DNA of 33,947 bases, from the IMG/VR virus record IMGVR_UViG_3300028008_002405, positions 1 through 33,947 of that record; one strand, 5' to 3'. The notes under the pieces were generated by a model. The model was not told the origin of the DNA and searched no databases. It was given only the letters and a program-made list of their open reading frames with translations. This document shows positions 221 through 33,947 of this stretch, piece after piece. Position 1 is the first letter of the stretch. Each line of letters opens with the position of its first letter. Source of the stretch: a virus. Position numbers and translations under genes: made by a program.

Positions 221-260
221 AAAAAGAACTCTTCCGGTAAATATATACGCAGAAGAGTCC
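221..260 (-). terminator. Rho-independent terminator of the alcohol dehydrogenase/aldo-keto reductase operon
   Basis: On the minus strand a 9-bp stem (GGACTCTTC paired with GAAGAGTTC, one G-U pair) with a 17-nt loop is followed by five T residues. It lies directly downstream of the leftward reductase stop codon at 277, where a terminator is expected. The rest of 1-220 is AT-rich and I see no gene in it. Confidence 0.75.
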
Positions 261-276
261 TCATTATCCTTTATTC

Positions 277-1290
277 CTATTTTGTGATCGTCCCGTCCAG
301 ATCCCACAGATCTTCCCAGCCTTTTGCCCCGGCCCAAAGGAATACCTGGCCTTTTACCAGGCGGCAGTTCTTGTCGGCAAGGCGGATCTTCTCCATCTCC
401 TCCTCTGTGAGCGGGTCCTCAGTGGTGCATTTCAGATTGCTGATATACTGTGGCTCCTTCACGGAGAAGGGAATCGGCACCTGCCCGCGCTGTACCGCCC
501 ATTTTAAACACACAACCGCCGGATGTACCTGATGTGCCTGGGCAATTTCCAGGATTTCCGGCATCTGGGTATCCGCAATATCCTCAGAGGTTCTGTCGCG
601 CTCCGGGCGTGAGGGCGAGCCAATGGGACAATAACCGATAGGCACAATATTGTGCTCCTGTGCGTACGCAAACAATTCCGGCTGCTGAAAGCCCGGATGC
701 AGCTCCATCTCAATGGCAGCCGGCTGTACTCTGCACAGGGGAAGCACTGCTTCCAATTTCGGTATGGTCATATTAGACATACCGATATGGCGCACGAGGC
801 CTTCTTCCAAAAGCTGTTCACACTGTCTCCACACACTCATAAACTCCTCTGTGGAAAACGGCCTGGAATCCGGGTTTCTGGAATCCCCGTCACAGCCGGG
901 TGCATGGTAATTTGGAAATGGCCAGTGTACAAAGTACAGATCCAGGTAATCCAGGCCCAGATCCGCAAGGCTCTGCTTACAGGATGCTATGACCTCCCCA
1001 TCCCCGTGCATGTCATTCCACACTTTTCCGGTGATAAACAGTTCCTCTCTCTTTACAACTTGATCATCAAAGAGCCTCCCAAGGACAGCACCGATTTCTT
1101 TCTCGTTCTGGTAAACAGAAGCGCAGTCTATAAGGCGATATCCGCTTTCCACGGCACCATATACGGCATTTGATACCTGCTCTGCAGAATATTTATCAGA
1201 ACCAAAGGTACCGATACCCATAGCGGGCATCCTGGTACCTGTATATAAAGTTCTGTAAGGCACTTTTGCCGGATCTACTCCTTTCCCCAT
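277..1290 (-). CDS. Aldo/keto reductase
   Basis: NAD(P)H-dependent cytosolic oxidoreductase of the aldo/keto reductase superfamily, reducing aldehydes or ketones to alcohols. It is 337 aa from the chosen start. The (beta/alpha)8 signature is visible: the N-terminal strand with MGIGTFG, and the catalytic tetrad Asp55 and Tyr60 (in RLIDCASVY), Lys89 (FITGKVW) and His122 (YFVHWPFPN). I chose the ATG at 1290 because AAAGGTAGG lies just upstream and the upstream gene stops at 1298, leaving a 7-nt gap. A longer in-frame ATG at 1398 would overlap that gene by about 100 nt and is unlikely. It is co-transcribed with the alcohol dehydrogenase, which suggests a shared carbonyl/alcohol or sugar-alcohol substrate. 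The substrate cannot be read from the sequence. Confidence 0.93.
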   Translation of the reverse strand: MGKGVDPAKVPYRTLYTGTRMPAMGIGTFGSDKYSAEQVSNAVYGAVESGYRLIDCASVYQNEKEIGAVLGRLFDDQVVKREELFITGKVWNDMHGDGEVIASCKQSLADLGLDYLDLYFVHWPFPNYHAPGCDGDSRNPDSRPFSTEEFMSVWRQCEQLLEEGLVRHIGMSNMTIPKLEAVLPLCRVQPAAIEMELHPGFQQPELFAYAQEHNIVPIGYCPIGSPSRPERDRTSEDIADTQMPEILEIAQAHQVHPAVVCLKWAVQRGQVPIPFSVKEPQYISNLKCTTEDPLTEEEMEKIRLADKNCRLVKGQVFLWAGAKGWEDLWDLDGTITK

Positions 1291-1297
1291 AATAAAC

Positions 1298-2380
1298 CTA
1301 CCTTTCATCCTGGCTGCCGAAAACAACCGCAACTTTGCCGCACTGTCCGCCTGCCATAAGCTTATAGGCCTCACCTGCCCTCTCGATGGGGAATTCATCC
1401 GTAATTAAATCTTCCGGATGGATATTCCAACGCACCAGACGCTCAACCAACTCTTCCATTCTCCACAGACTTGTCACCCAAGAACCATAAATGGTCTTCT
1501 GTCCGTGAATAATATCCGGGCTTGGATTGAAGGTACAGGTTCCGCCCTCTCCAACGAATGCAATTTTGCCCCACTCTCTTGTGGCACGGATAGCAAGCTG
1601 ACGACCTGCATCATTGGCACTGGCATCAATGGCACGTTCTACACCGTGTCCTCCGGTCACTTCCAAAATCTCGTCCAGGGTATTCTCGCCCGGTTTGAAC
1701 ACATGGTCCACAAGTCCCAGTTTCTTAGCCAGGTCAATGCGGTAATCATTCATTTCCACGCCGATCAATCGATTCGCTCCCAGTGCTTTGGCAAGCATGA
1801 GTGCTGCCAGGCCTACAGGGCCAAGTCCTGTCACCAAAACCGCGTCATTTCCGCTGATACCGATCTTTTCAATCGCCTCATAAACCGTACCGAATCCGCA
1901 GGCTACCTGTGCACCGTCTTTGTATGTCAGTTCATCCGGCAGGGCGATCAGGTCTTTTTCTTCTGCCAGTATGTACGGGGCCATACCGCCGTTTCTCTGC
2001 CAGCCGTACGCCTGACGGAATTTGCTCTTACAGGAAATGTAATATCCTCTGCGGCAGTCATTACACACACCGCATCCGGAAATGTGATATACGATCACCC
2101 TGTCACCCTTTTTGAATCTGCGGAGGCCTTCGCCCTCCTCCACGATAACACCGCAGGGCTCATGGCCTGCCACCATGCCCGGAATATATCCCTCCGGCCC
2201 TTTTCCCACGTGTTCCCTGTAAATGCAGCGGATATCACTGCCGCAGATCGTAGTTGCCTTTGTCTGGATCAATACCTGTCCGTGACCCGGTTTCTGAACA
2301 TCGAACTCCTTCATTTCCACAGAGCTGTTGCCCGGAAGTATTGCGCCTGCCATCTTTTTCGGAAGCATTTTTACTGCCAT
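1298..2380 (-). CDS. Zinc-dependent alcohol/polyol dehydrogenase (MDR family)
   Basis: Medium-chain zinc alcohol dehydrogenase that oxidises an alcohol or polyol with NAD(P)+. It is 360 aa from the chosen start. Catalytic zinc ligands Cys46 (ICGSD) and His73-Glu74 (AGHEPCG) are present. The structural zinc lobe has the full CxxCxxCx7C spacing (Cys103, 106, 109, 117). A Rossmann glycine motif GLGPVGL follows near residue 190. The start at 2380 has GGGAGGAC about 8 nt upstream; the longer ATG at 2401 lies upstream of that site. It is the first gene of a two-gene leftward operon with the aldo/keto reductase. The Leloir-like pairing of two oxidoreductases suggests sugar-alcohol interconversion, but that is inference. 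Confidence 0.93.
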   Translation of the reverse strand: MAVKMLPKKMAGAILPGNSSVEMKEFDVQKPGHGQVLIQTKATTICGSDIRCIYREHVGKGPEGYIPGMVAGHEPCGVIVEEGEGLRRFKKGDRVIVYHISGCGVCNDCRRGYYISCKSKFRQAYGWQRNGGMAPYILAEEKDLIALPDELTYKDGAQVACGFGTVYEAIEKIGISGNDAVLVTGLGPVGLAALMLAKALGANRLIGVEMNDYRIDLAKKLGLVDHVFKPGENTLDEILEVTGGHGVERAIDASANDAGRQLAIRATREWGKIAFVGEGGTCTFNPSPDIIHGQKTIYGSWVTSLWRMEELVERLVRWNIHPEDLITDEFPIERAGEAYKLMAGGQCGKVAVVFGSQDER

Positions 2381-2684
2381 AATTGTTGTCCTCCCAACCA
2401 TGAATTCCAGCGTTTGTGCTGTTTCTTATTTGTCCTTATTATACCATTCTGCGGGAAGGTTATTAGAGATATCTGCGACACCTTGAAATCTTTCATGTCG
2501 TGTTTTCGTATATTTTAAAGTTAAATCCTGTGACGACAGCCGGTCCGTGCATAGATGTCCTTTACATATCCTAATATGACAAAACTGTAAGATATTCTTT
2601 GAATTTGTAAGGTAAATCGATGGCAGACATCTCTGCCATGCTCTATAATCATCACTGTAAAACACATATTACGGAGGATTTGAA
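2381..2684. promoter_or_regulatory. Divergent intergenic region between the dehydrogenase operon and traX-like gene
   Basis: This stretch separates two divergent genes and should hold both promoters. On the minus strand an extended -10, TGGTATAAT, lies at 2438-2446 upstream of the dehydrogenase, with no good -35. On the plus strand a clear ACGGAGGA ribosome-binding site precedes the ATG at 2685. The 79-aa minus-strand open frame here has no ribosome-binding site and no recognisable motif, so I do not call it a gene. Confidence 0.45.
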
Positions 2685-3548
2685 ATGAACGAAGCTGCAG
2701 CTATAAATAAGACAGGCGCCGCCAAATGGGGATTTACGTCCTACTCCCTGAAAGTTCTGGCGCTTCTGCTGATGACACTTGACCATATTTATTATTATTT
2801 GGGAAGCGGAATCCTTCCGATCCCACATATCTTCACCCTGCTTGGCCGGATTTCCGCACCGCTGTTTCTGTTTGCCATGGCAGAGGGGTTTTCACACACA
2901 CATGACAGGATGGCATATCTCAAGAGGCTGTATCTTGCATCTGTACTCATGTCAGTGGGCAATGACCTGGTCAATTCCTTTCTTCCGCACCCAAATGGTG
3001 CCATGGTCATTAACGGCATGTTTGCCACCTTATTTATTGTGGGCCTTTATATCTGGGCCATCGAATTGTTATTGGGAAATATAAAAAAGAAAAATTGGAA
3101 AAACATAGGGATTGCACTGGCTATGCTGCTCATTCCCATAGGTTCAGGTATTGGGATCACTCTGTACATGGGAAATACCGCATCAGTTTCACCCATCGGA
3201 AGGATTGTATTCCAGGCCCTGTATACTTTGGTGCCGTCACCGATTTTTGTGGAAGGCTCTGTTTACTGGGTGTTCCTTGGAATCGGCTTTTATTTTCTCA
3301 GAAATAAGAAAATCGGTCTCTCTGTCTTCTATGTACTTATGTCGGGATTCTTCTTCTTTACCGCAGCCGGCGAAGGAATGACCTATGAGAATCTGTTCAT
3401 CCTGAATGACCAGTGGTTTATGGTCCTCTCCCTACCTTTTATCCTGCTTTACAGCGGACAGCGGGGAAAGAAAATGAAATACTTTTTCTATATGTATTAC
3501 CCGCTGCACGTATACGTGCTTGTACTACTGGCCAGACTTTTGGCCTGA
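2685..3548 (+). CDS. TraX-family integral membrane protein
   Basis: A 287-aa polytopic membrane protein resembling the TraX family (named after the F-pilin N-acetylation protein). The LKVLALLLMTLDHIYYYL segment at residues 24-41 is the typical first helix with a conserved Asp-His. It is followed by the family-like GRISAPLFLFAMAEGFSHT stretch around residues 54-72. About eight hydrophobic segments follow, and the C-terminal MKYFFYMYYPLHVYVL segment is also typical. In Firmicutes, TraX-family proteins occur widely outside conjugation systems and are thought to be membrane acyltransferases; the acceptor is unknown here. It has a strong ribosome-binding site, stands alone as a rightward unit, and is followed by its own terminator at 3597. 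Confidence 0.88.
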   Translation: MNEAAAINKTGAAKWGFTSYSLKVLALLLMTLDHIYYYLGSGILPIPHIFTLLGRISAPLFLFAMAEGFSHTHDRMAYLKRLYLASVLMSVGNDLVNSFLPHPNGAMVINGMFATLFIVGLYIWAIELLLGNIKKKNWKNIGIALAMLLIPIGSGIGITLYMGNTASVSPIGRIVFQALYTLVPSPIFVEGSVYWVFLGIGFYFLRNKKIGLSVFYVLMSGFFFFTAAGEGMTYENLFILNDQWFMVLSLPFILLYSGQRGKKMKYFFYMYYPLHVYVLVLLARLLA

Positions 3549-3596
3549 CACCGGACTGACTCTCGGTCTGACCGGAAAAATTATATCATGAGCAAA

Positions 3597-3657
3597 AGAG
3601 ACCTTATCCAAAAGACAGTATAATATCACGGCTGCCTTTGATAAGGTCTCTTTTTTT
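3597..3657 (+). terminator. Strong intrinsic terminator after the traX-like gene
   Basis: A perfect 12-bp stem, AGAGACCTTATC (3597-3608) with GATAAGGTCTCT (3640-3651), is followed by a run of seven T. The 31-nt loop is unusually long. It lies between the rightward traX-like gene and the convergent 3' end of the M23 gene and may serve both directions, since TTTTG follows the stem on the minus strand. Confidence 0.85.
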
Positions 3658-3677
3658 CACAATCCTGGCGGCTCAGC

Positions 3678-4166
3678 TCACGGCTTCTCCGAATCCGTGC
3701 CTGCTGCCGGCTGCTCCTTTGCAGTCTTCAAATACTCCAAAGCCTCCGGGTCCTTCATCTGGAGCATTCTTGACCACTCCTTTGTGGCATCATCCCTGAC
3801 CACCTCTGACTGGTTCTTATACAAAAATTTTACCAATTCATAGACATCCACCCAGATTTCATGATTCCCTTCCCTCTGGGACTCGTCAAAGATAAGCTGC
3901 AGTCCAAAATGCAGATGGGTCGTGTCAATATTATTCACATTTTCCTTTGCGCTGTATCCTGTTCGTCCCATATAGCCCACAACATCCCCGGCCTGAACAA
4001 CACTGCCCACTTCCAAGGATTTGCAGTACGGAAAGTTCTGACGCAGGTGGGCGTAATAATAATATCGTCTGCCGTCAAAGCTGCTGATACCCAGACGCCA
4101 TCCTCCGTACTGGTTCCATCCCATAGCTGATACATAGCCGGATTCTACAGCTATGATCGGTGTTCC
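3678..4166 (-). pseudogene. M23 (LytM-type) metallopeptidase, 3' part only
   Basis: The readable homology begins at TGTPIIAVESGYV (near 4163) and runs to the stop at 3678. It contains the beta-rich LytM core, the GGWRLGISS and YYYYAHLR strands, GDVVGYMGRTGYS, and the second zinc motif HxH in THLHFGL. The first zinc-ligand motif (H-x3-D), which should lie 10-25 residues upstream, is missing. The frame continues upstream to about 4370, but that part (CSECQGNIVLYFIL and upstream) does not resemble an M23 protein and overlaps the SOS-type promoter on the other strand. The protein would have hydrolysed peptidoglycan cross-bridges. The clean loss of the 5' half next to phage DNA suggests disruption by prophage integration rather than slow decay. 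Confidence 0.7.
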
Positions 4167-4185
4167 TGTCAGGATAAAATATAGA
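4145..4185. other. Probable left prophage attachment junction (attL)
   Basis: M23 homology in the leftward host gene stops near 4165. From about 4190 rightwards the sequence is promoter and small-ORF DNA typical of a prophage edge, followed by lysis, tail and head genes in one orientation. The junction is inferred from that boundary. The second copy of the core (attR) is beyond the window, so the core sequence and its exact extent cannot be defined here. Confidence 0.5.
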
Positions 4186-4512: not shown

Positions 4513-4815
4513 GTAAACAGAGGTATGGGTAACCTCTGTTCGGCATGATCGACCGGTACTGTTATGGTGCCGGTCATTTTGCGTATAAGCGTACGTCCTG
4601 CCCCGCAGAGGCTTATACGGGCAGTTACGTTGCCAGCGCCGGATAACTGCACCGGGGCGTGATCGGGGTTGACGGGTGACCGGCCTGCAGTATCGTCATA
4701 GGCAGGTACGACGGTATCGCAGGTACTTGTGGCTTGCAAGCCAATGGGCCGCCAGGGGAGTTGCACCCCTGGTACGCTGTCCGGCCCTTCACCCGGTATT
4801 TCCTAATCGGGATGG
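4513..4815 (+). ncRNA. Candidate structured non-coding RNA of unknown class
   Basis: About 300 nt, clearly GC-richer than its flanks, with no convincing ORF and many perfect helices. Simple hairpins are 4518-4524/4532-4538 (7 bp) and 4551-4559/4567-4575 (9 bp, one G-U). A 9-bp helix 4582-4590/4611-4619 interlocks with CTGCCC 4598-4603 pairing to GGGCAG 4619-4624, an H-type pseudoknot. The alternative GCAGTTA/TAACTGC helix (4621-4627/4644-4650) competes with it. A long-range helix 4673-4679/4789-4795 (7 bp) closes a multi-arm junction. Its arms are 4684-4697/4710-4723, the palindrome 4731-4742, and 4746-4758/4766-4787 with an inner 7-bp perfect hairpin. The G-U pairs favour the plus strand. 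The architecture is compatible with large phage or transposon RNAs such as HEARO/OMEGA, but I cannot confirm the class. Confidence 0.6.
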
Positions 4816-4819
4816 CACA

Positions 4820-4963
4820 CTATACTGGAAAGGGTTGCTGATGCTCCTCTTCCCATTCCATTTCCATCTCATATAATTTTTCAATCCATTCTATATAATT
4901 CATACTTTTAGGCTTCTTTACCTTAAAAAATTTTTCCAAGGCTGTTATTCTGGCCCCAATCAT
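4820..4963 (-). CDS. Small acidic phage protein, 47 aa
   Basis: The ORF starts at ATG 4963 with AAAGGAG 6 nt upstream and encodes 47 aa. A basic N-terminal half (KFFKVKKPKS) is followed by a strongly acidic helix (EKLYEMEMEWEEEHQQ). There is no signal peptide and no membrane segment. The good ribosome-binding site and charge pattern suggest a real gene; the function is unknown. A GC-rich hairpin (4976-4982/4991-4997) lies immediately 5' of its ribosome-binding site and could affect translation. Its stop codon abuts the 3' side of the structured RNA on the opposite strand. Confidence 0.6.
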   Translation of the reverse strand: MIGARITALEKFFKVKKPKSMNYIEWIEKLYEMEMEWEEEHQQPFPV

Positions 4964-5008
4964 AATACTCCTTTCCCGGCGCATAACCGGGCGCCGGTCC
5001 GGTGCTTC

Positions 5009-5101
5009 CTATTTGCATTTCCGGTCTTTGAGTAACACTACAATGATTCCTGTGCTGACAATGATCTGCACGACGTCTAAAATAATTTCTATGATTGCCA
5101 T
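5009..5101 (-). CDS. Possible 30-aa hydrophobic peptide
   Basis: Thirty residues starting MAIIEIILDVVQIIV form one continuous hydrophobic helix ending in a basic tail (LLKDRKCK). This is the layout of holin-like or type I toxin-like membrane peptides. No Shine-Dalgarno sequence precedes the ATG at 5101, which weakens the call. It lies between a 38-aa peptide of similar design and the 47-aa ORF, downstream of a hairpin at 5133-5160, so expression might depend on readthrough. Confidence 0.4.
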   Translation of the reverse strand: MAIIEIILDVVQIIVSTGIIVVLLKDRKCK

Positions 5102-5132
5102 ACTTGACAATGGGCAAAGAAAACGATATCCT

Positions 5133-5160
5133 TATTTTAAGGGAAGGGGCTTTCGCCCCC
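5133..5160 (-). terminator. Possible terminator after the 38-aa membrane peptide
   Basis: On the minus strand GGGGC-GAAA-GCCCC (5155-5159/5146-5150) forms a tight tetraloop hairpin followed by TTCCCTTAAAAT. The T-run is interrupted, so termination may be partial. Confidence 0.45.
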
Positions 5161-5165
5161 GCCCC

Positions 5166-5282
5166 CTAATCTAGCAGATGATTGATTAAATCAATCAGGG
5201 CTTGGATTAGTTGGATTGTTGCGGTAATGAGAAGGATGCTTGCGAGGCGTTTCTCATTGCCGCTTTTCTTTTTCTTCCCCAT
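5166..5282 (-). CDS. Holin-like/toxin-like small membrane peptide, 38 aa
   Basis: Thirty-eight residues: a very basic N-terminus (MGKKKKSGNEKR) followed by an amphipathic to hydrophobic helix (LASILLITATIQLIQALIDL). It has an excellent AAAGGAGGTGA ribosome-binding site and a perfect consensus promoter (TTGACA-17-TATAAT) directly upstream. Peptides of this design in Firmicute prophages are usually annotated as putative holin-like toxins. Such expression strength for a membrane-active peptide would need repression. The divergently transcribed HTH protein at 5436 is the obvious candidate, since symmetric motifs occupy both promoter spacers. The toxin role is inference. Confidence 0.65.
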   Translation of the reverse strand: MGKKKKSGNEKRLASILLITATIQLIQALIDLINHLLD

Positions 5283-5308
5283 TGTTCTCACCTCCTTTCT
5301 ATGATTAC

Positions 5309-5413
5309 ATTATACACTAATAAGTGTCACATGTCAATACTTTAATTTCACTTTTTTATTTCTTTTTAAACTCATATATTTATATTGACATTTAAAAGTG
5401 TATCATTTACACT
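5309..5413. promoter_or_regulatory. Divergent promoter pair with inverted-repeat operators
   Basis: Leftward promoter: -35 TTGACA (minus strand, 5332-5337), 17-nt spacer, -10 TATAAT (5309-5314). Rightward promoter: TTGACA (5385-5390), 17-nt spacer, TACACT (5408-5413). The leftward spacer holds ACACT-AATA-AGTGT (5314-5327). The rightward spacer and -10 hold AGTGTA-TCATT-TACACT (5397-5413). Both use the half-site AGTGT, though in opposite relative orientation. This suggests control of both promoters by one dimeric regulator, most simply the HTH protein encoded at 5436. Confidence 0.7.
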
Positions 5414-5435
5414 GTAATTAACAGGAGGTGTTATC

Positions 5436-5651
5436 ATGTTAACTGTATCAGAAAAAGTCAGGGTTTTATTAGATAGAAAAAAAATGACTGTAGGAGATTT
5501 GGCTGATAGACTGGGCGTGACAAGACAAAATTTGAGTAATAAACTTACAAGAAATAATTTTGCTGAAAATGATATAGCCAAATTAGCAGATGCATTGAAT
5601 TGCGATTTTGAGATTAGATTCACAGATAGAGATACAAATGATTTTATTTAA
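5436..5651 (+). CDS. Small HTH (Cro/CI-type) DNA-binding regulator
   Basis: A 71-aa single-domain helix-turn-helix protein. The DNA-binding core is MTVGDLADRLGVTRQNLSNK at residues 18-37, with the recognition helix VTRQNLSNKL, and the fold continues through AKLADALNCDFEIRF. It has an ACAGGAGGTG ribosome-binding site. Size and sequence match stand-alone XRE-family regulators rather than a full lysogeny repressor. It is divergent from the 38-aa membrane peptide and its own promoter contains an inverted repeat, so autoregulation plus repression of the peptide is likely. It stands far from the early genes, which argues against it being the main CI repressor. Confidence 0.85.
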   Translation: MLTVSEKVRVLLDRKKMTVGDLADRLGVTRQNLSNKLTRNNFAENDIAKLADALNCDFEIRFTDRDTNDFI

Positions 5652-5656
5652 ACACC

Positions 5657-5685
5657 AGCCCCGGCTCATCACCGGGGCTATTATT
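5657..5685 (+). terminator. Terminator hairpin after the HTH gene
   Basis: AGCCCCGG (5657-5664) and CCGGGGCT (5672-5679) form a perfect 8-bp stem with a 7-nt loop, followed by ATTATTATG. The T content after the stem is modest, but its place 5 nt after the stop codon fits a terminator. Confidence 0.6.
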
Positions 5686-5723
5686 ATGCCACTAACTCGA
5701 CGTCGAGCCGGATCACAGCATCA

Positions 5724-5790
5724 CTATTTAAGTGCACCGGAACTGTCGGTATAACACATCTTGCCGGACTTGTCCACGTAGTAGACCTTT
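5724..5790 (-). pseudogene. Detached C-terminal tail of a phage lysin
   Basis: Minus-strand translation reads KVYYVDKSGKMCYTDSSGAL and ends at TAG 5724. It is the counterpart of the last residues of the intact lysin at 6332 (YYVDKQGRMCYTDSSGRL), diverged at many third positions. There is no start or upstream lysin sequence: the preceding bases belong to the end of the 132-aa ORF. It is a remnant of a second lysin 3' end, left by recombination or by insertion of the DNA between 5790 and 6331. Confidence 0.75.
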
Positions 5791-7430: not shown

Positions 7431-7724
7431 CTACTCCTCTTTGTTATGCTGCTTGATAACCTGATTTACATAGGTACTCAGTCCGGCCACCAGGATACCC
7501 TGGACAATTGCCGTAAACACCGCCATTGCAATCTCCTGCATTCCTCCCATCGGAGATGTGGCAACCACCCATATACCGCACAGCAAGATACCTATAGTAC
7601 CAATTGTTACCGGTATGTATTTATCTGAAATTGCTTCTGTTTTTTTCATTGCCATTCCTACAAAATACAGTACGACGGCCAAAACCAGTAATTCCGGTTT
7701 CACATAATTCATAATCTGTTCCAT
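7431..7724 (-). CDS. Phage holin (Phage_holin_5_2-like)
   Basis: A 97-aa membrane protein with about three hydrophobic segments: PELLVLAVVLYFVGMAM near residues 9-25, IPVTIGTIGILLCGIWVVAT at 37-56, and IAMAVFTAIVQGILVAGLST at 64-83. A short charged C-terminus (KQHNKEE) follows. The MNYVKPELLVLAVVLYFVGM start is typical of the holin family found in Clostridia prophages. It opens the membrane so the lysin encoded immediately downstream can reach peptidoglycan. AGGAGGG precedes the ATG. Confidence 0.88.
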   Translation of the reverse strand: MEQIMNYVKPELLVLAVVLYFVGMAMKKTEAISDKYIPVTIGTIGILLCGIWVVATSPMGGMQEIAMAVFTAIVQGILVAGLSTYVNQVIKQHNKEE

Positions 7725-8094: not shown

Positions 8095-8639
8095 AAACTC
8101 CGCTTTAGGTGGAATGGCGATTCAGACGGGAAGAGTTACTATAACCCCGAAGCCAAATGAACCCACTATGAAAAAGGTAACTTTCCCGAAACCCTTTAAA
8201 AGTCAGCCCGGCGTAGTGATGACTGTTATTTCATCCGTACCAGGCACAAATGTTTTGGGAATTGGTACAAGTAATAATACAAAAGATGGGTTTGAAGCAT
8301 ATGTTACAAGGATAAATGATACAGAGACAATTATGGTGTGGGTTGCAATAGGGCCAATGTAAAATAGGCTATTTTGCTGGTCCTATTGCTACCCACATTA
8401 CTGTACTGGTTGTAGTTCCACTACGTGTAAGATAAATGTTGCATCCACTTTTTGTTACATCAGACGCAGATGTTCCGGTTATGGCTGTACCAGGTGCTGA
8501 ACTGGCAGGGCAAGTAATGACAACCGGTGCTGACGCAAACTCACGGCTAAACACTACTGCTTTTGCAGTTGGTGTATTTGCGTTTGGCGTAATGTCCACT
8601 CTTCCGGTAAGAATTTGAAACCCTCCTAAAGCGGAGTTT
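8095..8639. repeat. Invertible tail-fibre segment bounded by 15-bp inverted repeats
   Basis: AAACTCCGCTTTAGG at 8095-8109 and its exact reverse complement at 8625-8639 bound a 545-bp segment; after one mismatch, two further G positions also match. The segment holds two convergent alternative 3' gene halves separated by 6 nt. One is the expressed C-terminus (minus, 8369-8624) and the other a silent, homologous C-terminus (plus, 8110-8362). The repeat encodes N-S-A-L-G in the same frame in both copies, so inversion would exchange C-termini without a frameshift. This is the layout of phage Mu/P1 tail-fibre inversion systems. No recombinase gene is in the window. Confidence 0.88.
8096..8362 (+). 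CDS. Silent alternative C-terminal half of the tail-fibre protein
   Basis: Read from the repeat, the frame gives NSALGG followed by 82 residues (MAIQTGRVTITPKPNEPTMK onwards) ending in VWVAIGPM. It aligns along its length with the expressed C-terminus on the other strand (LTGRVDITPNANTPTAK to VMWVAIGPAK) but is heavily diverged in between, as expected for receptor-binding surfaces. An AGGTGG sequence is only 1-2 nt before its ATG, so it is unlikely to be translated alone. Joined by inversion to the constant part it would give a 141-aa fibre, against 142 aa for the present form. Confidence 0.85.
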   Translation, partial: NSALGGMAIQTGRVTITPKPNEPTMKKVTFPKPFKSQPGVVMTVISSVPGTNVLGIGTSNNTKDGFEAYVTRINDTETIMVWVAIGPM

Positions 8640-8797
8640 AGTTCACGATTCATTTCTTCTTTGAATTTCCCCACAGATATTCTTTTTGTCTGTGGGGATC
8701 CTGTATCTGGCGTAGTATCTATGAGTAAATCATCCTTGCCACTTACTGTTGTTACTAATTCTAATTCTTTGATTTTCTTTCCTGCTACTTCTGCCAT
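8369..8797 (-). CDS. Tail-fibre/receptor-binding protein with invertible C-terminus
   Basis: A 142-aa protein. Constant N-terminal part, residues 1-59: MAEVAGKKIKELELVTTVSG starts a short virion-attachment domain resembling those of siphophage fibres, and the part ends in a helical linker FKEEMNRELNSALGG. Variable part, residues 60-142: a beta-rich domain of about 83 residues (TGRVDITPN, SREFASAPVVIT, STVMWVAIGP) that probably contacts the host receptor. The inverted repeat falls at codons 54-58. It is the last tail gene before the lysis cassette, the usual place for a receptor-binding protein. The start has GGGAGGA upstream. Exchange of the C-terminus would change host range or antigenicity. 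Confidence 0.82.
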   Translation of the reverse strand: MAEVAGKKIKELELVTTVSGKDDLLIDTTPDTGSPQTKRISVGKFKEEMNRELNSALGGFQILTGRVDITPNANTPTAKAVVFSREFASAPVVITCPASSAPGTAITGTSASDVTKSGCNIYLTRSGTTTSTVMWVAIGPAK

Positions 8798-33435: not shown

Positions 33436-33947
33436 CTATCTTTTCTCCAATTTCCCGCACTCACTAACGCGGTGGAACTGATTTGCAAAGTCAAGTATCG
33501 CATTTCGGGCTGTTATATACTCTGGGTCATCACAATCCAGCTTGCAAAAGTGGTATGCCAATTGCACGGCAATACGCTTGCACACCTTGACTGCAAGGCC
33601 TCCACACCACAATGGCCAGCACGAAAAGTCCAGGTCGGCTCCGCTCAGGTCGGCTCCGCTCAGGTTGGCTCTTCTCAGGTCGGCTCCTCTCAGGTCGGCT
33701 CCTCTCAGGTCGGCTCTTCTCAGGTCGGCTCCGAACAGGTCGGCTCTTCTCAGGTCGGCTCCTCTCAGGTCGGCTCTTCTCAGGTCGGCTCCGCTCAGGT
33801 CGGCTCCTCTCAGGTTGGCATCTCTCAGGTTGGCTCTTCTCAGGTCGGCTCCGCTCAGGTCGGCTCCGCTCAGGTTGGCTCCTCTCAGGTCGGCTCTTCT
33901 CAGGTCGGCATCTCTCAGGTTGGCTCCGAACAGGTCGGCTCCGCTCA
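33436..33947 (-). CDS. Pentapeptide-repeat protein, 5' end outside the window
   Basis: The frame is open from the window edge to TAG 33436, about 170 residues so far. The first 105 are pentapeptide repeats of the A(D/N)LxG type (for example [20 protein letters not shown]), which build a right-handed beta helix. The remaining 65 residues ([20 protein letters not shown] then [20 protein letters not shown]) are a C-terminal domain of unknown function with several Cys. Pentapeptide proteins mimic DNA and can protect gyrase, but this remains a class property. No start or upstream part is visible, so length and identity are open. Confidence 0.85.
33631..33945. repeat. 15-bp tandem repeat, 21 copies, coding for pentapeptides
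   Basis: Exactly 21 contiguous 15-bp units of the form CAGGTYGGCTCYKCT (plus strand; a few units carry ATCTCT or CCGAA at the 3' end). All but the last bases are near-identical, and variation sits mainly in positions that change the variable residue. Such homogeneity points to recent expansion or gene conversion, with copy number likely to differ between strains. Confidence 0.95.

Follow-up and report, generated by a model that had tools for sequence, protein, structure and literature searches.

How could a phage tail gene with two alternative C-terminal ends between inverted repeats exchange those ends when no recombinase lies in the surrounding record? The question is raised by IMG/VR virus record IMGVR_UViG_3300028008_002405 (positions 1 to 33,947), a stretch of 33,947 nucleotides that we refer to as the window. 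Based on comparisons with related phages, we propose, with a probability of roughly 0.7, that the segment is a compact tail-tip shufflon of Blautia prophages, with one pair of ends and two sites, that has lost its enzyme and either switches only with a recombinase supplied in trans or is locked. Positions 222-4170 of the window are host chromosome, 84-87% identical to Blautia parvula NBRC 113351 and carrying aldo/keto reductase and alcohol dehydrogenase genes, and the prophage starts at about 4.2-4.5 kb. Judged from this flanking sequence, the host of the prophage is Blautia, a gut bacterium. The record is a truncated prophage; its early end, where a syntenic relative has an integrase, is missing. 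At the right end, the gene for a pentapeptide-repeat protein (33436-33947), whose DNA contains repeats about 83-89% identical to one another, runs off the record.

The candidate invertible segment spans 545 bp including both arms (8095-8639) and is bounded by AAACTCCGCTTTAGG, a perfect 15-bp inverted repeat at 8095-8109 (plus strand) and 8625-8639 (minus strand). No further copy of AAACTCCGCTTTAGG was found in the window at up to two mismatches, and among perfect inverted repeats of at least 15 bp whose arms start 100-2000 bp apart, the pair is the only one in the window. When the window was simulated 200 times with a first-order Markov model, the mean number of such repeats was 0.035 (7 of the 200 sequences had one). 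The arm on the constant side of the gene (8625-8639, minus strand) reads (C)TAAA-CTCCGC-TTTAGG and occupies the same position in the related loci L004, L005, L029, L030 and L087. The silent-side arm (8095-8109, plus strand) reads CAAAA-CTCCGC-TTTAGG with TGTA before it, and matches the silent-side sites of L005 (GTACAAAACTCCGCTTT). An earlier note, made from the letters of this DNA, had described a repeat bounding two convergent homologous ends joined in the same frame, and this description holds: both junctions encode N-S-A-L-G-G. Inverting the segment in silico swaps the 142-residue protein for an uninterrupted protein of 141 residues and, as the note had predicted, an 83-residue end for an 82-residue one. 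Judged by its layout and sites, the segment is a candidate for inversion.

The protein expressed in the observed orientation, P0001 (8369-8797, minus strand; 142 residues), begins with a constant half of 53 codons (MAEVAGKK...NREL; 8639-8797, minus strand), followed by NSALGG and a variable end of 83 residues (FQILTGRV...; 8369-8624, minus strand). The silent end (MAIQTGRV..., Gp53-like_C; 8110-8362, plus strand) reads in frame as NSALGG plus 82 residues, converges on the expressed end to within 6 bp of its stop codon, and is 49% identical to it in protein sequence. An H-type lectin fold is predicted for residues 59-142 of the expressed end, with predicted-fold similarity to LKA1 tailspike gp49 and to the R2 pyocin fibre tip (Z 10.2 for each) and to AP22 gp53 (Z 8.2), and the crossover, at residues 54-59, falls directly before this domain. 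The gene lies between tail genes (tape measure, tail proteins) on one side and holin and endolysin genes on the other. Because of its position and predicted fold, we infer that P0001 is a receptor-binding protein, in which case swapping its end may switch host range. In the lysis region itself a module has been swapped: the holin (7431-7724) shares only about 23% identity with its positional counterparts in L004 and L005, against 82-92% for the endolysin. As single-protein queries against viral contigs, P0001 and the L005 recombinase described below (P0002) matched only the closest contigs, and P0001 had no match in genome contigs. Two similar proteins were set aside: Blautia phage Montmirail encodes a 43%-identical full-length relative that has no matching inverted repeat at the site and looks non-switching, and in a second B. 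parvula prophage (L045) a MAEV-type N-terminus is joined to a different end and sites are absent.

Besides the window, six loci carry the module (L003, L004, L005, L029, L030 and L087). The phage of L005, with which the window is syntenic over 4553-33227, and a B. parvula prophage (L087) each carry four sites, arranged (+)(-) recombinase (+)(-), so that a Xer-type tyrosine recombinase lies between two convergent cassette pairs; only one pair is present in the window. One of the four L005 sites is partly degenerate. Within the B. parvula genome (6.2 Mb), AACTCCGCTTTRG is confined to the four module positions. L003 is identical to the window in DNA and orientation, L004 carries the same two ends as the window on an unrelated N-terminus and has TTTGGG in both arms, and L030 has CTCCAC in both arms. 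The IMG/VR contig L029 begins exactly at the silent-side crossover site (1-14), where the assembly might have been broken by rearrangement. The note had named loss of the repeat in such phages as a refutation; instead, all relatives that retain both halves have it, and its two arms vary jointly: arms are identical in 7 of 8 convergent pairs, including those of each compact module, though variants differ between phages (permutation P 0.0007, for phages that are related and not phylogenetically independent). These joint changes include a synonymous Leu change (TTA/TTG) and the spacer change to CTCCAC in L030, whose pair has shared changes relative to the B. parvula pair. One cassette type is placed for expression in L005 and lies silent in L029 (90% DNA identity), and therefore ends change state over evolution. 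Elsewhere in the window, positions 4553-5789 are 94-96% identical to L004 (4553-5317) and L005, against the 77-78% typical nearby in L005.

The full modules also point to the likely enzyme. P0002, from L005, is a Xer-type tyrosine recombinase of 330 residues whose alignment to the XerA model (E 3e-69) reaches residue 324, and the B. parvula recombinase is 86% identical to it. The 33.9-kb window record, a truncated prophage, has no PF00589 or PF00239 match, hence neither a tyrosine nor a resolvase-type recombinase, in line with the earlier statement that it holds no invertase. This absence is largely explained by the enzyme in related modules. The window copy appears, from these comparisons, to have lost its recombinase, and hence would be either locked or dependent on another phage's enzyme. 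From linkage and site anatomy, we infer that recombinases of the P0002 family are paired with these sites. Of 397 genomes of the family, 33 encode a P0002 homologue (E<=1e-70), and many of these genes adjoin hsdM/hsdS/hsdR, with inverted repeats of the TAAA-N6-TTTA type. In a quick tree, of which we use only the main split since several branches are long, P0002, the B. parvula protein and the recombinase of L089 form a clade that groups with recombinases mostly in phage tail loci. The hsdM/hsdS/hsdR-linked recombinases, about 37-49% identical to P0002, form the neighbouring group. Several sites of both groups share TAAA-N6-TTTA with different spacers, a likeness that is suggestive only because these are AT-rich words.

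Related recombinases are found at other tail loci. For instance, another Blautia genome holds a seven-site tail shufflon (L089, 6486-9771) with the site AACTCCTCTTTAGC and a recombinase about 54% identical to P0002. A Lachnospiraceae phage tail locus (L121, 4998-7753), whose recombinase falls among those grouped with the P0002 clade, has the (+)(-) recombinase (+)(-) layout with a different site, ACAAAATTCTAAG, and collar-type ends, and in L126 and L129 three copies of GATAAATAGCA surround a related recombinase. A Terrisporobacter phage (L021) and a gut contig (L022) were rejected as further cases; in each, tail genes adjoin a related recombinase that is not surrounded by an exact inverted repeat of the window's kind.

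The relation between full and compact modules is seen most clearly in their mosaics. Compared with L005, the window has DNA identities of 87% in the constant half, 95% in the last silent end and 52% in the end adjoining the constant half. Compared with L004, the two ends are 98% (expressed) and 95% (silent, against the last cassette) identical and the constant half is 56% identical. These are reciprocal mosaics with breakpoints exactly at the crossover site, and they suggest that the switching site can also serve for tail-domain exchange between phages. When B. parvula phage DNA is joined by script at sites 1 and 3, it gives an unbroken 864-bp alignment (84%) to the compact L030 module; without the joining, the alignment splits into two main pieces. 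Given the mosaic breakpoints and this joined alignment, the compact modules (window, L004 and L030) have the topology that would result if directly repeated sites recombined and the recombinase gene was excised. Insertion of a circle, the reverse reaction, would give an identical topology, and both compact from full and full from compact would fit.

Based on these data, we propose the following mechanism. The full module runs from the constant N-terminus through site (+), end A, the convergent end B and site (-) to the Xer-type tyrosine recombinase, and then through site (+), end C, the convergent end D and site (-). The recombinase would exchange strands at the 6-bp spacer CTCCGC between the short arms TAAA and TTTA. 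Exchange between inverted sites would fuse another lectin end to the constant half, and recombination of sites 1 and 3, which are direct repeats, would remove A, B and the recombinase gene. The window phage has the topology of the product of site 1 and site 3, with one pair, intact sites and no enzyme. Its two states would interconvert only with a recombinase of the P0002 family acting in trans, most simply from a co-resident or infecting full-module phage; without such an enzyme the module would stay locked in the observed state.

The compact forms could be non-functional relics. According to this reading the segment no longer inverts, and the silent end is a leftover or raw material for inter-phage exchange at the conserved site. 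The records of compact modules, which are incomplete, contain no recombinase, and the window, the identical L003 and L004 share one orientation, as expected of a locked module, though three are too few to decide between locked and switching. However, the silent end retains an open frame, intact and 95% identical in DNA to its relatives, and the identical arms of each compact module, together with the shared changes of the L030 pair, speak against this reading. We regard a permanently locked segment as possible but the lesser prospect. Equally tentative is a more specific form of the proposed shufflon: compact modules may be a stable non-autonomous class that sheds the invertase by excision between sites 1 and 3, keeps matched sites, and switches ends only beside a full-module phage in the same cell, while the excised circle (a site, two ends and the recombinase) may re-enter other compact modules. 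If so, tail ends and their invertase would spread between phages via site-specific recombination.

A cellular recombinase, either a host member of the hsdS-invertase clade or host XerC/XerD, might instead flip the segment, and the P0002 homologues beside hsd genes and TAAA-N6-TTTA repeats in the family would fit this. We consider this improbable, as the hsdS sites have the spacers TGATAA, CGATAA and CAATAA, unlike CTCCGC, and the enzymes linked to them reach only about 37-49% identity to P0002. It is also improbable that the prophage has its own recombinase gene beyond window position 33947. The window is truncated and its syntenic relative runs on for several kb, but the same region of that relative has a large serine recombinase, and its only tyrosine recombinase is the one in the module.

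The same observation bears on the integrase, which the earlier note had offered as a possible actor. The integrases of the two relatives with one in their record are large serine recombinases and the sole tyrosine recombinase found in L005 is module-encoded, making integrases unlikely actors at the crossover site. Separately, the end of the L029 phage record (L039, 13116-16377) has two adjacent large-serine-recombinase-like matches. The note had further likened the layout to the G segment of phage Mu. In the Mu G segment and the P1 C segment, the serine recombinases Gin and Cin act at 26-bp gix/cix sites, and inversion swaps tail-fibre ends. The analogy survives for function, the swapping of tail ends, but not for kind: neither a small serine invertase (PF00239) nor a gix-like 26-bp inverted site within three mismatches of the consensus was found in the window, as the note's remark that the site is unlike gix had anticipated, and what the closest relatives encode within the module is a tyrosine recombinase of Xer type. 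Inversion by a Mu/P1-type serine invertase or by a large serine integrase therefore seems very improbable, despite the G-like layout and the large serine recombinases of relatives. Finally, the repeat can hardly be mere coding conservation of N-S-A-L-G-G between two duplicated ends: the site is indeed translated, into identical residues in the two ends, but it matches at 15/15 against about 52% DNA identity of the ends overall, recurs four times in a single prophage while being absent from the rest of that genome, and has a synonymous base that changes jointly in both arms, which contradicts this explanation.

Our literature search found no published account of such a system in Blautia phages, which does not by itself prove that none exists, and we compare the module with systems described elsewhere. 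The hsdS invertases at pneumococcal cod/tvr loci (PMC4948785, PMC6265443) are akin through their enzymes, since the Blautia tail recombinase is 37-49% identical to hsdS-adjacent recombinases, and at pneumococcal tvr a tyrosine recombinase excises a circle holding its own gene (PMC6265443). They differ in their spacers and in their target, which is DNA methylation specificity and not a phage tail; the window ends are not type I specificity subunits but H-type lectin and Gp53-like tail domains. An orphan-looking invertible tail gene is in this way tied to an identifiable recombinase family and placed beside the hsdS invertases. In the R64 plasmid shufflon (Rci/sfx), sites have a variable left arm and a conserved core and right arm (PMC11852207). 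The Blautia module shares this site anatomy, a tyrosine recombinase and alternative C-terminal ends (of an adhesin in R64), but the site sequence differs and P0002 has no extra C-terminal domain past the XerA-like core, unlike Rci.

The closest parallels come from bifidobacterial prophages. One bifidophage locus with no adjacent recombinase has about 500 bp inverted at CAGGGTTA, for which an invertase in trans was proposed (PMC6109161). Like the window, it is a two-state segment of about 500 bp in a phage structural region with a short repeat (PMC6109161). It has a different repeat, and its two orientations are known from two genomes, whereas for the window the relatives point to the likely missing enzyme. 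The window offers a specific example, open to testing, of a tail switch in one phage that may rely on an enzyme from another. The Rin shufflon is known from bifidobacterial prophages (PMC6109161) and also from Eggerthella lenta prophages, with H-type lectin variable genes (PMC8778435). Set beside the published description of Rin, the Blautia module likewise joins a constant receptor-binding N-terminus to several variable C-terminal ends of about 80-100 residues (PMC6109161), with short asymmetric crossover repeats in the reading frame and a XerD-like tyrosine recombinase at the locus of temperate gut phages. It differs in its crossover sequence and Blautia host, and the full form has convergent end pairs with the recombinase between two pairs. 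The window has the constant N-terminus with alternative in-frame ends, and its short site recurs within the gene and at every one of those ends, but the locus has no tyrosine recombinase, which the L005 and L087 modules do have. For this reason we file it as a Rin-like variant and not a full member, one that works like Rin only if the enzyme is supplied in trans. The window holds a variant, lacking the recombinase, of a tail shufflon of the Rin-like tyrosine-recombinase type and no homologue of the Mu G segment, and with it such shufflons, published for phages of Actinobacteria, are extended to phages of Blautia and other Lachnospiraceae.
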